NCBI GenBank assembly: GCA_035559535.1
Contig: DATMBG010000022.1
Location: 256,568-320,567, forward strand
Direction: 5' to 3'
Length of the DNA stretch: 64,000 nt
Origin: Candidatus Limnocylindrales bacterium
GTDB taxonomy: Bacteria; Moduliflexota; Moduliflexia; Moduliflexales; JAUQPW01
Positions 49,383 through 55,438 of the stretch are shown here, piece after piece. Numbering within the stretch: position 1 is the first letter of the stretch; each line of letters begins with the position of its first letter. The notes under the pieces were generated by a model, which ran no database searches, was not told the origin of the DNA, and saw only the letters and a program-made list of their open reading frames with translations. The translations under genes were made by a program, and so were the position numbers.

Positions 49383-50324
49383 ATTAAACAGAGTTTTACC
49401 CTTCGCGTTCTCGATTCAGATGCCCATCAACGGTTGGATACCTTCCTTGCCCACCGGTCCGATGTATCTTTATCCCGATCCCAGGCTGCAAAACTTATTA
49501 AACAGGAGCGGGTTCGGGTGAACGGCCGTCCGGTAAAGCCCAGTTACGAAGTGCAGGTAGGAGATTGGATTGAGGTAGATCTGCCGGAACCGGAACCGCT
49601 GGAACTCGTTCCCGAAGAAATCCCTTTAGATATTCTCTATGAAGATGAAGCCCTTATCGTTTTGAACAAACCGGCGGGCCTGGTGGTGCATCCGGCACCT
49701 GGACACCCAAAAGGAACCCTTGTCCATGCCTTACTGGCCCATTGCCAGAATCTTTCGGGGATCGGAGGGGTCCAAAGACCCGGTATTGTCCATCGACTGG
49801 ATCGAGATACTTCCGGAGTTATGCTGATAGCTAAAACTGATCAGGCCCATCAAAGCCTTTCTACCCAACTGAAGAATCGGGAGATCATCAAGGAATATCT
49901 GGCCGTTGTTCATGGAATTTTTAAAGATAAAAAAGGGACTCTTTCCACAGTGATCGGACGGCATACCCATGATCGTAAGAAAATGTCCGTCTTTACCCGG
50001 CAGGGTCGTCCGGCCGTTACTTCCTATGAAGTGATTGAAGAATTTCCCAATTATTCGCTGGTGAAAATCCAGATCCACACCGGACGTACCCATCAAATCC
50101 GGGTCCATATGAAATATCTGAACCATCCTGTGGTAGGAGATCCTTTGTATGGAAGAGGTGCTAAAGATCAGGCCCTTATCCAGCGCCAGGCCCTCCATGC
50201 AAAACGTATCACTTTTAAACATCCGGTAACCGATCACCCCCTGGAGTTTGTGGCACCCCTACCGCAAGATATGAAAAATCTCCTTGAAAAGCTGCGAGCC
50301 TCATATGGAACTCAATCTCATTAA
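49383..50324 (+). CDS. rluD: RluA-family 23S rRNA pseudouridine synthase (RluD-like)
   Basis: This protein of about 313 residues has an N-terminal S4 RNA-binding domain (SRSQAAKLIKQERVRVNG) and a pseudouridine synthase domain with the catalytic Asp in GIVHRLDRDTSGVM, plus the VHPAPGHPKGTLVHALL and GRTHQIRVHMKYL motifs. It isomerises uridines in 23S rRNA; the exact site is inferred from resemblance to RluD. The family N-terminus (FTLRVLDSDAHQRLDTFLA) is encoded upstream of the first normal start, TTG 49434. No ATG, GTG or TTG lies between the stop at 49344-49346 and 49434, so ATT 49383 or an altered 5' end must be considered. Its last 20 bases overlap the next gene. Confidence 0.88.
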   Translation: MKQSFTLRVLDSDAHQRLDTFLAHRSDVSLSRSQAAKLIKQERVRVNGRPVKPSYEVQVGDWIEVDLPEPEPLELVPEEIPLDILYEDEALIVLNKPAGLVVHPAPGHPKGTLVHALLAHCQNLSGIGGVQRPGIVHRLDRDTSGVMLIAKTDQAHQSLSTQLKNREIIKEYLAVVHGIFKDKKGTLSTVIGRHTHDRKKMSVFTRQGRPAVTSYEVIEEFPNYSLVKIQIHTGRTHQIRVHMKYLNHPVVGDPLYGRGAKDQALIQRQALHAKRITFKHPVTDHPLEFVAPLPQDMKNLLEKLRASYGTQSH

Positions 50325-51630
50325 ATTTAGAGTCGGTGGAGTAGATTTTGGAATTTCCGTTGAGGAAGTCCAGGAGGTTATCTTCTATCCTAAACTGCGC
50401 CCATTACCAAGACCTCTACCCCCTGTTAAAGGGGTCTTCGAATTTCGCAATAGCCTGATCCTTCTCGTGGATCTACGGAAAAGATTGGGATTAGACTTTA
50501 CCGGTTTAACACGCAATACCCGGGTGATTGTAGCCAGATTAACCCAGGGACTTACGGGAATACTCGTGGAATCCCTCTCAGACTTCAAACGTATATCAAC
50601 AGAGTCTCTCCTCCCTCCCATTCCTTTGGCCGGATTCGGTGAAGACCTTTTGAAGGGAATTTATTTACAGGACGATGAGATGATCCTGCTTCCCGATTTT
50701 AATAAGATTCTATTTTCATTTATCCGGATCCAGTTGTCACCTCCCAGCCTCTTCGATCGGATAGCCCTTCGACATAAATTTAATAAAGGTCCGTTAACTT
50801 CGATCCTGGAAGAAATTTATACCCACCGGCAGATACCTTTTTCGACGACGCAGGCCAAGATACTTGCCAGATCCCTGGATCTGCCTGTTACCCAACTTTG
50901 TAAAATAACCTCCTTCTATCAGCGGTTTCATCCTATCTCCCCTCCCATTGAGTCCCTTGAAAGCCCGAGAATAGCCCAATTTGGGGATCAGGAATATCTC
51001 CAGCTTTCTCAACGTTTAGAAGAAGAGGAAAGAAAAGGAAAATTAAACCTTCTGGAGATAGAATCCCATAAGGAATCCCAAGATCTTATGGAGAGATGGG
51101 ATAGTTTCCTGGATAGAAATCCCTTTGACTTACCAAAGCCGGGCCCTAAGCAAGAAGCAAGGAACAAGACGCGAAGTTTTCTTGCTTCCCACCTCTTACC
51201 CCTGGTCACGGATTCTGGGAAGCAAATCCCTTTAACCCGATATAGAGATTTGGCCCGGAGACTGGATCTACCTACCCCCCAACTTGCGCATTTTATCTCC
51301 TTCTATAAAGGAAGTAGGGACAGGAAAATGAGCAAAGAGGATAAAGGGGAGGCCGCTGAGGTTAAATCGAAACCTGAGCTTTCTGTTAAGACCCTTTCGG
51401 AAGATCTTTTATCCGATAAGAACCAACCCTTACCGGAGGTACTTTATACCATTCTGGACCGACAAGGCTCTATCACCCCTGAAGATATTCGATTTATCAG
51501 TCGGGTTCGAAACCTTCCTGCCACGCAAGTCTACAAACTGGTTTCCTTTTTGTACGGGACGGAGGTCATTTTGAAAACAGAAAACTTGACAAGGAACCCG
51601 CAGGCAGTAGATAATGCCGGCTATAAATAA
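50305..51630 (+). CDS. CheW domain fused to repeated NuoE-N-terminus-like helical modules
   Basis: This 441-residue protein has an N-terminal CheW-like domain (residues 1-150): ELNLIKFRVGGVDFGISVEE, GVFEFRNSLILLVDLRKRLG and GILVESLSDFKRI. After that come three helical modules of about 48 residues, near residues 161-210, 288-339 and 372-421. They share a pattern of L..IL....IP...A..LA..L.LP..Q....SFY (for example ILARSLDLPVTQLCKITSFY and LARRLDLPTPQLAHFISFYK). That pattern is the signature of the N-terminal bundle of NuoE/HydC, but the cysteine-bearing thioredoxin part of NuoE is missing. ATG 50305 overlaps rluD by 20 bases. The next two genes are NuoF- and HydA-like, so it probably docks on that complex and links it to signalling; this is inference. 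Confidence 0.75.
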   Translation: MELNLIKFRVGGVDFGISVEEVQEVIFYPKLRPLPRPLPPVKGVFEFRNSLILLVDLRKRLGLDFTGLTRNTRVIVARLTQGLTGILVESLSDFKRISTESLLPPIPLAGFGEDLLKGIYLQDDEMILLPDFNKILFSFIRIQLSPPSLFDRIALRHKFNKGPLTSILEEIYTHRQIPFSTTQAKILARSLDLPVTQLCKITSFYQRFHPISPPIESLESPRIAQFGDQEYLQLSQRLEEEERKGKLNLLEIESHKESQDLMERWDSFLDRNPFDLPKPGPKQEARNKTRSFLASHLLPLVTDSGKQIPLTRYRDLARRLDLPTPQLAHFISFYKGSRDRKMSKEDKGEAAEVKSKPELSVKTLSEDLLSDKNQPLPEVLYTILDRQGSITPEDIRFISRVRNLPATQVYKLVSFLYGTEVILKTENLTRNPQAVDNAGYK

Positions 51631-51665
51631 AAGGAAGATATTTCTCAAAAGTTCAGGTATTCTGA

Positions 51666-51866
51666 AAGCAGATTTTAAAATTTTGGGGTGAAAGACATCC
51701 GGGGAGCGAGGGAAATTTATTTCCGGTTCTGAATAAGATAAAAAAGGAATCAGGATCTCTGACCCTGGATGAGGCTAAACATGTGGCTTCTTTACAAGAT
51801 ATTTCCCATGTCCGGCTTCATAAGCTTCTCATAGTTTATAACGTAAGCGTCCCTATGGAACGTTGA
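51666..51866 (+). pseudogene. Detached fourth NuoE-like helical module
   Basis: This 67-codon open stretch has no ATG, GTG or TTG. Its second half encodes LFPVLNKIKKESGSLTLDE followed by HVASLQDISHVRLHKLLIVY, the same module pattern as the three copies in the preceding gene but in another frame. A frameshift, real or in the assembly, between about 51567 and 51725 would explain it. Confidence 0.5.
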
Positions 51867-51895
51867 ACGTTAGATGAACGGTCATTACGCTGATT

Positions 51896-53680
51896 GTGAA
51901 AACCCTTACCGATAAATGTTGTTCAAAATGCTGGGACAGTGAACTCCAACGCTGTCCGGTTTTTACAGAGTGCCAACCTCAACGGCCTTTGTCCCACTGT
52001 CATACAGATGAGGCTTGTATTCGTCAGCGTGAGGAGGTTGTCACCCGACTCCGGTATGGAGCCGGAACTTTGATTCGGGTTGGAGTGGGCACTTGCGGTC
52101 AACAGGCAGGAGCTTCTTCGGTATTGGGAGCTATTTTCATAGAACTTCAACGACGAAATCTTTCCCATGTAAGCCTTTCGATAACGGGATGTCTGGGAAA
52201 TTGCTTCCAGGAAGTTGTGGTTTCCATTTCTCATCCTAAATACCCCACCGTTCTTTACACCCAGGTAAGTGAAGACAGGGTTCCGTATTTGATTTCCGAG
52301 CACATCGAAAAAAAGCGTATTGCCCGGGATTTGGTTTTAGCTCAACTGGAGGAGCCCGGGAAAAAGCCTTTAGGTCATGTTCCGGTCTTCAAAAATCTAG
52401 ATTTTTTCCGAAAGCAGATCTGGCGCGTCTCAGAACGTTGTGGGCATATGGATCCTGAAAGCCTGGACGACTTTTTGTTGCATGGAGGTTTTCTAGGTCT
52501 TTCTAAAACCATCAGAGAAGCTAAGCCGCCGGACCTGTTGAAATTGCTTAAAGAATCTAAGTTAAAGGGTCGTGGGGGGTCTGGAGAAGATGTGGCCGAT
52601 AAATGGGCCCGCGTGGCTGCTGCAGATGGAGAGGAAAAATATATCATCTGTAATGCCCATGAAGGAGATCCGGCCTCCTTTAAGGATCGAAGGTTACTGG
52701 AAAGTGATCCCCTGGGGGTCATAGAGGCTATGACCCTGGCCGGATATACCGTTGGAGCCGGAAAAGGGATTATCTTTCTGAACCCCAGGTATGAACTGGC
52801 TAAAAAACGCTTAGAACTGGCCCTTACGAAGGCACGGGCCTTTAATTACCTGGGGAAAGAAATTCTCGGCTCGAACTTTTCTTTTGATATCGAGATTCGA
52901 TTATCCCCAGGAGATTACCTGTCGGGAGAGGAAACTTCTTTGGTTACTTTCCTGGAAGGTAAAGCCGGGGTTAGAAGGGTCCCACCTCCCTTAACCAGCC
53001 AGGGTCTGTGGAATCTTCCTACGTTGATCCACAACGTAGAAACCCTCTTGAACATACCCCTTTTGGTGGTCAAAGGGGTTGATTGGTTTCGTGAACAGGG
53101 TACCGGGAACAGTCCGGGAACTCGATGCTGGACCTTATCCGGATGCCTTCAACGGAGGGGGATCGTAGAAGCTCCCGTCGGTATTTCGATTCAAGATCTG
53201 CTGGATATGGGGGGTGGGGCCCTGCCCGGGAAGAAAATTAAAGCCGTTCATGTGGGGGGATATGTGGGAGGTTATCTGCCGGAGAGTCTGTTTCAGACTC
53301 CTTTAGACGACGTGTCCCTGAAAAAATCAGGTATTAGCTTGGGAATCGGATCTCTGGTAGCCCTGGAGGAAACCACGTGTATGGTTCATAAGACCTGGCA
53401 AGACGCTCTTTTTACGGCTAAAGAAGAGTGTGGTCAGTGTACCCCGGGGCGGGAAGGCTCTTATCAGATATCTCGATTTCTGGAGAAAATCTGCCGGGGA
53501 AGAGGAGTCCGAAGTGATCTTCAGAAGCTCAAAGAAATTGCTTTCTATATGCGGGAGGCTTCCATGTGCGCTTATGGGCGCTTTTCCCCTGGACTTATAT
53601 CCAGCTCTCTGGAGTATTTCCACTCTGAGTATGAGGAGCATTTGCAGAAGCACTGCCCGGCAGGGGTTTGTTTTAAATAA
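51896..53680 (+). CDS. HndB/NuoF-like flavoprotein of a hydrogenase-type complex, altered cluster site
   Basis: This 594-residue protein begins with a cysteine-rich stretch (CCSKCWDSELQRC and more, residues 8-42). A [2Fe-2S] thioredoxin-like domain of HndB type follows (VGVGTCGQQAGA, then ITGCLGNCFQE). The NuoF core has FMN/NADH regions (LKGRGGSGEDVADKW, YIICNAHEGDPASFKDRRLL, SGEETSLVTFLEGKAGVRR), then an SLBB segment and the C-terminal cluster domain. The motif normally written CGxCxPCR reads CGQCTPGR, so the third cysteine is Gly (codon 53447-53449). The usual NADEGDP reads NAHEGDP. There is no C-terminal ferredoxin domain. It should pass electrons between NAD(H) and a partner, but cluster N3 may be absent or changed. 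Start GTG 51896 lacks a good ribosome site. Confidence 0.82.
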   Translation: MKTLTDKCCSKCWDSELQRCPVFTECQPQRPLSHCHTDEACIRQREEVVTRLRYGAGTLIRVGVGTCGQQAGASSVLGAIFIELQRRNLSHVSLSITGCLGNCFQEVVVSISHPKYPTVLYTQVSEDRVPYLISEHIEKKRIARDLVLAQLEEPGKKPLGHVPVFKNLDFFRKQIWRVSERCGHMDPESLDDFLLHGGFLGLSKTIREAKPPDLLKLLKESKLKGRGGSGEDVADKWARVAAADGEEKYIICNAHEGDPASFKDRRLLESDPLGVIEAMTLAGYTVGAGKGIIFLNPRYELAKKRLELALTKARAFNYLGKEILGSNFSFDIEIRLSPGDYLSGEETSLVTFLEGKAGVRRVPPPLTSQGLWNLPTLIHNVETLLNIPLLVVKGVDWFREQGTGNSPGTRCWTLSGCLQRRGIVEAPVGISIQDLLDMGGGALPGKKIKAVHVGGYVGGYLPESLFQTPLDDVSLKKSGISLGIGSLVALEETTCMVHKTWQDALFTAKEECGQCTPGREGSYQISRFLEKICRGRGVRSDLQKLKEIAFYMREASMCAYGRFSPGLISSSLEYFHSEYEEHLQKHCPAGVCFK

Positions 53681-53689
53681 GAGGGGAAA

Positions 53690-55438
53690 ATGGATCTCAT
53701 TTCGATTCTTATCGATAACCGGGAAATTCAGATTCCCAGAGGAATTACGGTTTTAGAAGCGGCTGAATCCCTGGATATTAAAATTCCTGCACTATGTGTT
53801 TCCCCAGGCTGGGGAACGTCCGGTTTTTGTCGAAGTTGCGTGGTAGAGGTGGAAGGAGAGGATTACCTTCCCATAGCCTGTAGTCTGCCCGTTCAAGAAG
53901 GGATGGTTATCAAAACGAACTCCCCCAGAGTACTTGAATCCCGTAGATTAACGGTGGAATTGCTCCTTGCCCGCCATACCATGGATTGTGCTGTCTGTTA
54001 TCGAAATGGCAGGTGTTCTCTCCAAGATCTGGCAAATACCTACGGAATCAAGGAATCTCGATTTCTTACCCGAGAGAAACCCCTGGAAATCGATGATAAA
54101 AGTCCGGCCATTGTGCATAATCCCAACCGCTGTATTCTATGTGGTTTATGTGTTCAGGCCTGTTGCGATATCCAAACCGTTTCGGTGATTGATTTTGCCC
54201 ATCGAGGATTCGACCGGGTCGTGGAACCGGCCTTCGGACAGAGTCTTAATGAGGTGGAATGTGTTGCCTGTGGGCAGTGCATCCAGATCTGTCCGGTAGA
54301 ATCTTTCTATGAAAAAAGCGAGATCGATAAAGTAAGGGAAGCCCTGAGAGATCCCCATAAAGAGGTTGTGGCGTTTTTATCTCCTTCGGTGCCGCTCTCT
54401 ATCGGAGAAGAGTTTGGAATCGAGCCCGGAAAGTCTCTCTCCGGAGAAGTTATAAAGGCCTTGAAAATGGCCGGTTTTAAGAAGGTTTTTGATACCGCTC
54501 TGGGGGCCGATTTGGTAATCATGGAAGAAGCTTATGAGCTGTTAACCCGCTGGAATTCGGGTAAAAGTCTCCCTCTGATAACCTCCTGTAGTCCGGAGTG
54601 GGTCAAGTTCGTCGAGCACTTTTATCCGGAACTCTTACCTCATCTCTGTCCTACCAAATCCCCCCAGCAGATCATGGGAACTTTAGCCAAGACCTATTTT
54701 GCCGAGATTACGAAGATAGATTTGAAAAATCTCTTTACGGTTTCTATAACTCCTTGTACGGCTGAGAAGTTTGAGCGGACCCGACCGGAGTTAAATATCC
54801 AGGGTTTTCCGGATATAGATGCCTGTTTAACCGTCAAAGAGGTAGCCCGCCTCATTCGGATGACCCTGGGAAACCCTTTTCCCGATATCGGCTCCGAAGA
54901 GTTTGATCAACCCTTCGAGGTCTCATCGGGAGCAGGAGTTATATTCGGAGTGGCCGGGGGGGTCATGGAAGGTGTGCTGAGGACTCTGTACGAGCTTAAA
55001 GTCGGTAAGAAGTTGAAATCGGTAGCTTTTGAGAATATCCGGGAAGAAGTCAGAACTTCTTACAGCGGAGGCCTTCGGGAAGTGGAGGTTCAAGTAGGAA
55101 ATGAAACCCTTCAGGTTGCTGTGGTGCACGGATTAGGAAATGCCAGAAGGATATTGGAGGCCCTTCGATCCGGGAAGAGCCGGTATCATTTTATCGAAGT
55201 AAAAGGATGCCCCAACGGCTGTGCTCAGGGGGGCGGTCAACCTATTCCAGCTACCCTTGAAATTATTCAGGCTCGAGAACGCGGCCTTTATCTAGAGGAT
55301 GAAAAAAGAAAAATCCGTAAAGCCCATGAAAATCCCAGAATCAAAGAACTTTATGAAAAATTTTTTAAAAAACCCGCCAGTCCCACGGCCAGAAAATTCC
55401 TACACACGGAGTTTACGCCGCGGGAACACCATCTCTAA
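53690..55438 (+). CDS. [FeFe]-hydrogenase-like protein with altered H-cluster motifs
   Basis: This 582-residue protein has the domain order of a multi-subunit HydA. First comes a [2Fe-2S] domain (FCRSCVVEVEG), then a His-ligated [4Fe-4S] site (HTMDCAVCYRNGRC), two [4Fe-4S] ferredoxin motifs (CILCGLCVQAC, CVACGQCIQIC) and the catalytic domain with a small C-terminal subunit-like tail. The H-cluster motifs are changed. The first is TSCSPEW (usually TSCCPxW), the second TPCTAEKFE (usually MPCxxKKxE) and the third EVKGCPNGCAQGGGQP (usually ExMxCPGGCxxGGGQP). Cysteines 300, 356, 507 and 511 remain, but the Lys that holds the diiron cyanide and both Met residues near the diiron site are replaced. 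It may not make the normal active site. It begins 9 bases after the NuoF-like gene. Confidence 0.82.
   Translation: MDLISILIDNREIQIPRGITVLEAAESLDIKIPALCVSPGWGTSGFCRSCVVEVEGEDYLPIACSLPVQEGMVIKTNSPRVLESRRLTVELLLARHTMDCAVCYRNGRCSLQDLANTYGIKESRFLTREKPLEIDDKSPAIVHNPNRCILCGLCVQACCDIQTVSVIDFAHRGFDRVVEPAFGQSLNEVECVACGQCIQICPVESFYEKSEIDKVREALRDPHKEVVAFLSPSVPLSIGEEFGIEPGKSLSGEVIKALKMAGFKKVFDTALGADLVIMEEAYELLTRWNSGKSLPLITSCSPEWVKFVEHFYPELLPHLCPTKSPQQIMGTLAKTYFAEITKIDLKNLFTVSITPCTAEKFERTRPELNIQGFPDIDACLTVKEVARLIRMTLGNPFPDIGSEEFDQPFEVSSGAGVIFGVAGGVMEGVLRTLYELKVGKKLKSVAFENIREEVRTSYSGGLREVEVQVGNETLQVAVVHGLGNARRILEALRSGKSRYHFIEVKGCPNGCAQGGGQPIPATLEIIQARERGLYLEDEKRKIRKAHENPRIKELYEKFFKKPASPTARKFLHTEFTPREHHL

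Follow-up and report, generated by a model that had tools for sequence, protein, structure and literature searches.

A hydrogenase-derived gene trio with a CheW-NuoE(N) fusion in the phylum Moduliflexota (KSB3)

Introduction

What purpose is served by a gene set that resembles an NADH-linked [FeFe]-hydrogenase, if its NuoE-type subunit is merged with a coupling domain of chemotaxis? This question is raised by a 64,000-nucleotide stretch of contig DATMBG010000022.1 (Candidatus Limnocylindrales bacterium, phylum Moduliflexota), referred to as the window. Filaments of the phylum, also termed KSB3, have been characterised as strict anaerobes that glide, live by fermentation and carry a very large number of sensory genes; the main text of that description considers a possible role in chemotaxis for some 'hydrogenase' genes that adjoin signalling genes (PMC4312070). 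As far as gene neighbourhood is concerned, the idea of a chemotaxis-related hydrogenase in KSB3 has therefore been voiced before; the terms CheW and CheA are absent from the main text (PMC4312070). A literature search for a link between CheW, NuoE and hydrogenases returned nothing relevant.

Results

Organization and distribution of the locus

The trio comprises three open frames on the + strand, on which all features described below are located, and forms an operon-like run behind rluD (49434-50324). The first gene (50305..51630), which overlaps the 3' end of rluD, encodes a CheW-NuoE(N) fusion protein of 441 amino acids counted from an ATG, with an alternative TTG start possible at position 50284. 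It is followed by a NuoF/HydB-like gene (51896..53680; 594 amino acids, GTG start) and a HydA-like gene (53690..55438; 582 amino acids). Open frames and family matches confirm the original prediction of a hydrogenase-derived three-gene system on one strand. Matches in a promoter and terminator scan were no more frequent than in shuffled sequences.

The order rluD, CheW fusion, NuoF-like, HydA-like is identical in all four available genomes of Moduliflexota, the complete sample for this phylum, which span two families. Besides the window genome (G000), these are the three relatives JZ-2 bin, UASB270 (G003; trio locus L029) and KSB3 bacterium DOLJORAL78. UASB270 is linked to Candidatus Vecturithrix. 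In the following, L025 denotes the trio locus of a congener (G001), and L026 and L027 denote loci of the second family. A fusion-profile search of 385 genomes matched only the four KSB3 genomes and none of the other 381. Had the fusion mostly been located away from the NuoF/HydA-like pair, this would have spoken against a common system; in the 385 genomes it was never found apart from it. Among 77 other HydA loci with examined flanks, none is adjoined by a CheW gene, although remote HydA cases may have been missed because the genome collection was scanned with two HydA peptide patterns only. No catalytic partner subunit common to the operons of the four genomes was found, and no CheA or receptor gene adjoins the trio. 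Located 3' of the second-family trio (L026 15935-18627, L027 16249-18816) are an epimerase gene, a gene for a protein of 630-650 amino acids and nrdR; the 630-650 residue protein has an ATP-cone-like start and resembles anaerobic ribonucleotide reductase.

The CheW-NuoE(N) fusion protein

Residues 6-136 of the fusion (50320..50712) form a CheW domain, which is matched by Pfam PF01584 (E=7.5e-25; 87.6 bits at a curated cut-off of 23.5) and by solved CheW chains, and which is present in all four fusions. It is followed by three modules that resemble the N-terminal helical bundle of NuoE/HydC: module 1 (50770..50928, residues 156-208), module 2 (51166..51312, residues 288-336), which taken alone is the weakest of the three, and module 3 (51412..51555, residues 370-417), which gives a partial match to Pfam PF01257 over residues 372-415. 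Of the NuoE family model PF01257, only the N-terminal part is matched by the fusion (E=7.8e-6). A profile of NuoE/HydC N-termini from other loci scored 27.7 bits on the window fusion, whereas none of the 423 shuffles that were scored exceeded 5.7. Among 2601 open reading frames, the four CheW fusions were the top matches without the NuoE cysteine motif, apart from one NuoE-NuoF fusion that scored ahead of them. This latter protein of UASB270 (L179 238-1959) has lost the cluster cysteines from its NuoE part, where QVDTNIPGFLAG replaces the CxxxxC stretch. Conversely, a profile of the four fusions retrieved CheW chains and then HydC/FdsG chains from the solved structures; in the latter, every match fell within the bundle of about 60 residues at the N-terminus.

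In the congener, the fusion is 527 amino acids long and carries four modules. The fourth is degraded in the window genome by a stop codon and indels, leaving a remnant (51631..51870) of the module that is intact in the congener (L025 7804-8040), and the window gene is shorter than its relatives. In the second family, the first module is readily recognised, whereas those after it are weak. The four fusions contain 1, 0, 4 and 5 cysteines, none of which is conserved across all of them, and the [2Fe-2S] domain of NuoE (the C1 cluster of BfuC) is absent. In the related NiFe enzyme the C-terminal cluster domain of HydC is the mobile part (PMC8880783), which by analogy would fit the N-terminal bundle as a fixed docking unit. 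A single-chain AlphaFold model of the fusion is poor (pLDDT 50). Pfam, the comparison with shuffles and the solved chains agree with the proposal of a CheW domain carrying repeated modules of the NuoE N-terminus, and, judged by sequence, the role of NuoE appears to be reduced to docking-type bundles plus CheW. A NuoE partner of the trio elsewhere in the window genome was considered and rejected; the other NuoE matches are accounted for by complex I and a formate dehydrogenase-like pair, each of which has its own NuoE.

The NuoF/HydB-like protein

The second protein is NuoF/HydB-like (1.9e-99 to TIGR01959). It starts with a CCxxC prefix (51896..52051; NF040902, E=5.1e-8, below cut-off), in which C8, C9, C12, C20, C26, C35, H36 and C41 are invariant in all four proteins; these eight cysteine and histidine residues may form an extra metal site. 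The thioredoxin-type [2Fe-2S] cysteines of the N-terminus are gone in L026 and L027.

Within the FMN/NAD domain (52550..53059) the contacts to FMN are retained. In HydB of Acetomicrobium, K177, N194 and E197 bind FMN, F180 and F307 sandwich the adenine of NAD, and E287 binds its ribose (PMC8880783). According to the alignment, K236, N253 and E256, the equivalents of the three FMN ligands, are kept in all four proteins. The adenine-stacking phenylalanines, however, are lost: F180 corresponds to R239 (Arg or His in the four) and F307 to L366 (Leu or Tyr). The equivalent of E287 is E346, which is replaced by proline in L027. Two further substitutions, Asp to His at position 255 and Asn to His at position 379, are found in all four.

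The [4Fe-4S] domain (N3/B1; 53411..53641) keeps the ligands C512, C515 and C558, whereas C518 is replaced by glycine in four out of four; in L026 and L027 an extra cysteine is situated three residues past the last ligand. Due to this ligand loss, it is doubtful whether the wire from FMN to HydA is continuous in the window genome. The CCCH site, which could hold Zn or the B2 cluster, is invariant (C495, H582, C587, C592). It is not diagnostic for the Bfu family, since a similar end occurs in a formate dehydrogenase-linked NuoEF protein: the NuoE-NuoF fusion that adjoins a formate dehydrogenase-like gene in the window genome (L184 8010-9704) ends in CPSRVCF, corresponding to the end of a CCCH site without ferredoxin tail, as in the NuoF-like protein of the trio. 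This tail, two [4Fe-4S] clusters at the C-terminus of BfuB, is present in 54 of 66 HydB neighbours at other loci and absent from all four trio proteins. The loss by itself says little, because non-bifurcating relatives also are without it (PMC9499530). The flavoprotein was expected to have lost key residues, which is borne out by the missing NAD adenine sandwich and [4Fe-4S] ligand.

The HydA-like protein

The third protein matches NF040763 with 1.8e-212, yet remains below the cut-off of that model. Its accessory region (53690..54319) corresponds to one [2Fe-2S] and three [4Fe-4S] clusters; the 15 cysteines and one histidine that make up their 16 ligands are intact in the four proteins. The H-cluster domain (PF02906; 54359..55234), in contrast, is devoid of diiron-pocket residues. 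Substitutions in this domain are numbered as in CpI, whose residue n aligns with residue n+1 of the window protein before the first gap. Motif L2, VSITPCTAEKFE (54740..54775), carries the exchanges M353 to Thr and K358 to Glu, and motif L3, KGCPNGCAQGGGQP (55202..55243), carries M497 to Lys. K358E together with M497K occurs in all four trio proteins and in none of 79 homologues, in which K358 and M497 are both invariant (79/79). In addition, M353 is Thr or Ser in all four, A230 is replaced by Ser, and the arginine of the APxVR motif, three residues past P231, is lost. K358 holds a cyanide of the cluster; a literature search for this residue found nothing relevant. M497 and M353 frame the diiron site, and substitutions there reduce activity in prototypical enzymes; with M497L the [2Fe] cluster is not properly integrated, whereas sensory HydS tolerates other residues at both positions (PMC10055695, PMC8163306). 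The expected loss of key residues from this subunit is consequently found in K358E, M497K, M353T/S, A230S and the missing arginine.

It is not found in motif L1 of the window protein, TSCSPEW (54581..54601), where the original prediction had taken a Cys-to-Ser exchange as such a loss. Serine at this position is the commoner residue among ordinary homologues (Ser in 49/79, Cys in 30/79), and TSCS also occurs in the solved HydA1 of a hydrogenase (7q4v). Cys300 to Ser was thus rejected as a demonstration that the H-cluster is lost. The L1 motif of L026 and L027 reads SSSSPAW, with serine in place of both cysteines, so that C299S occurs in two of the four proteins; the same two have Gln instead of E282.

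The alignment has 115 columns with a conservation of 95% or more. The four trio proteins all retain 89 of these and all deviate in ten, nine of which map to the H domain; ligands of the accessory clusters are not among the ten. Cys379 of the H domain is trio-specific and invariant and might be a new cluster ligand. The four HydA-like proteins form one fully supported clade; owing to its long branch, the position of this clade relative to other HydA is uncertain. The same residue changes recur with the trio in all four genomes of the phylum, as had been proposed for checking.

Maturases and hydrogenase status

HydE, HydF and HydG, for which the original prediction had suggested a search of the genome, did not exceed the cut-offs in the window genome (95.8% complete), in the congener or in UASB270; the Thermotoga control was positive every time. 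They reach the cut-offs only in G002, clustered beside a second, separate HydA gene. Two HydA genes besides the trio are found in G002 (L186 and L185 on contigs C48 and C19), one of which adjoins HydE/F/G; both are separate from the trio clade. A single maturase gene could be hidden in the unassembled part of one genome, but three maturases missing from three genomes are unlikely to be due to chance. That the trio is not an ordinary hydrogenase is well supported at the level of sequence, and the complex almost certainly neither makes nor uses H2.

Selection and signalling genes

Compared with the congener, dN/dS is 0.17 for the fusion, 0.12 for the NuoF-like and 0.08 for the HydA-like protein, values which indicate that the genes are maintained. 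Constraint is strongest on the HydA-like protein, whose identity across the two families is only 52-54%. Inside the fusion, dN/dS amounts to 0.085 for the CheW domain and to 0.21 for the modules. All four trio genomes encode CheA and receptors; the window genome gave 5 CheA and 8 MCP matches. Since these genes are not adjacent to the trio, it is the CheW domain alone that would tie the trio to signalling. The trio can be described as conserved, kept by selection, and composed of hydrogenase-type subunits with CheW plus predicted docking-type bundles.

Discussion

Proposed function and alternatives

Loss of the catalytic centre, retention of the electron wiring and the tie to CheW indicate that the trio probably reports redox state to the behaviour machinery and does not serve H2 metabolism. 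The complex is probably an H-cluster-less derivative of an NADH-linked HydABC-type [FeFe]-hydrogenase, now docked to CheW as a redox-sensing unit that feeds CheA. The NADH-linked ancestor would have lost the H-cluster and kept its Fe-S wiring. Reduced ferredoxin or another low-potential donor would charge the HydA/NuoF pair via the HydA clusters, possibly including FMN, and the shape of the pair would change with its redox state. The bundles would be attached to the NuoF-like subunit or else to the HydA-like one, and the change would be relayed by the CheW domain to CheA/receptor arrays controlling motility or other outputs of the anaerobic filaments. We infer redox sensing from this arrangement. 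More tentatively, the trio may be a phylum-specific pseudo-hydrogenase that monitors the ferredoxin pool and is coupled to CheA arrays by the multivalent NuoE-type bundles on CheW, acting as a cytosolic redox receptor without a chemoreceptor of its own. Since HydABC is a tetramer of protomers (PMC9499530), one may speculate that a four-bundle fusion could bind all four copies.

An unlikely alternative is a working oxidoreductase that exchanges electrons between ferredoxin and an acceptor via the HydA clusters; the H-cluster site would then hold an ordinary [4Fe-4S] cluster, and CheW would only scaffold the enzyme or position it at the array. Retention of all accessory clusters and FMN contacts would fit such an enzyme, as would the invariance of three H-domain cluster cysteines and of the additional Cys379; moreover, the NiFe-HydA of Acetomicrobium likewise has a [4Fe-4S] cluster replacing the H-cluster (PMC8880783). 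However, the four operons share no catalytic partner subunit, and the NAD adenine site, the ferredoxin tail of HydB and the [2Fe-2S] domain of NuoE are lost. It is less probable still that the hydrogenase fold is redox-silent and merely a structural platform or oligomeriser for CheW. This would account for the loss of catalytic and cofactor residues in all three proteins and of the thioredoxin-type cysteines in L026 and L027, but hardly for 16 accessory ligands kept in every protein or for the strongest constraint falling on the HydA-like subunit. Decay of a former hydrogenase operon, as the degraded module 4 and the many lost residues might suggest, is already disfavoured and very improbable in view of a gene order kept across two families at 52-54% HydA identity and of dN/dS far below 1. 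Finally, a hydrogenase with an unusual active site, be it H2 sensor or enzyme, is scarcely credible: the overall HydA sequence and motifs L1-L3 are recognisable and sensory HydS also alter M353 and M497 (PMC10055695, PMC8163306), but HydE/F/G are missing from three of four genomes, both L1 cysteines are gone in L026 and L027, and K358 is Glu in all four although the hydrogen-bonding residues that hold [2Fe] are reported to be conserved even in sensory enzymes (PMC10055695).

If the preferred reading of an H-cluster-less redox sensor is correct, the trio would represent a clear conversion of a pseudoenzyme into a sensor, and the redox state of low-potential carriers, not H2, would be a new input of CheA arrays. 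Where signalling to chemotaxis proteins has been suggested for sensory hydrogenases, the enzymes in question still possess an H-cluster, in contrast to the trio, which has retained the wiring but no catalytic centre. The trio also bears on annotation: its proteins are recognised by models of [FeFe]-hydrogenases, and genes of this type may underlie part of the capacity for H2 production that has been published for bulking filaments of KSB3.

Comparison with known systems

With the electron-bifurcating or NADH-linked HydABC enzymes (HydDB group A3; Bfu family, PMC9304861) the trio shares HydA- and HydB-like subunits, the accessory clusters and the CCCH site of HydB. In contrast to HydABC, it has lost the H-cluster pocket, the NAD adenine site, one B1 ligand, the ferredoxin tail and the [2Fe-2S] domain of HydC, which is replaced by the CheW-bundle fusion. 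Of the features that mark the Bfu family, only the CCCH site is found; the C1 cluster of BfuC, the tail of BfuB and an intact B1 are absent. The modules match the N-terminal helical domain of HydC/FdsG chains and no other part of these chains, but are repeated three to four times without a thioredoxin-like [2Fe-2S] domain. Similar to CheW and multi-domain CheW-like adaptors, the fusion has a full CheW domain in a genome with receptors and CheA; unlike them, it carries docking bundles of the NuoE type, and its gene lies together with those for redox subunits.

Chemotaxis has been considered for hydrogenases before, as HydDB group C2 of the [FeFe]-hydrogenases is termed 'chemotactic (putative)' (PMC5037454). 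Like the putatively sensory groups C/D (HydS), the trio is hydrogenase-derived, presumably coupled to signalling and changed at M353 and M497. Unlike HydS, it has a HydABC-type HydA, CheW instead of a receptor, no K358 and mostly no maturases; neither the PAS domain nor the extra C-terminal cluster of HydS was detected in it, and the pocket for the H-cluster, which HydS retain, is lost. For the 'hydrogenase genes' of UASB14 and UASB270, near some of which signalling genes were noted, the authors predicted some to be catalytic (PMC4312070); UASB270 is one of the trio genomes, its trio HydA is without pocket residues and the genome without HydE/F/G.

Judged by these comparisons, the trio lacks defining features of [FeFe]-hydrogenases (diiron-pocket residues, with C299S in two of four proteins, and maturases, found in G002 only). 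It likewise departs from the Bfu family and from sensory HydS in features that define them, and only as a CheW-domain protein does it qualify. In its presumed action it most resembles a sensory hydrogenase or an energy-taxis input, stemming from another region of the hydrogenase tree and lacking a catalytic centre.
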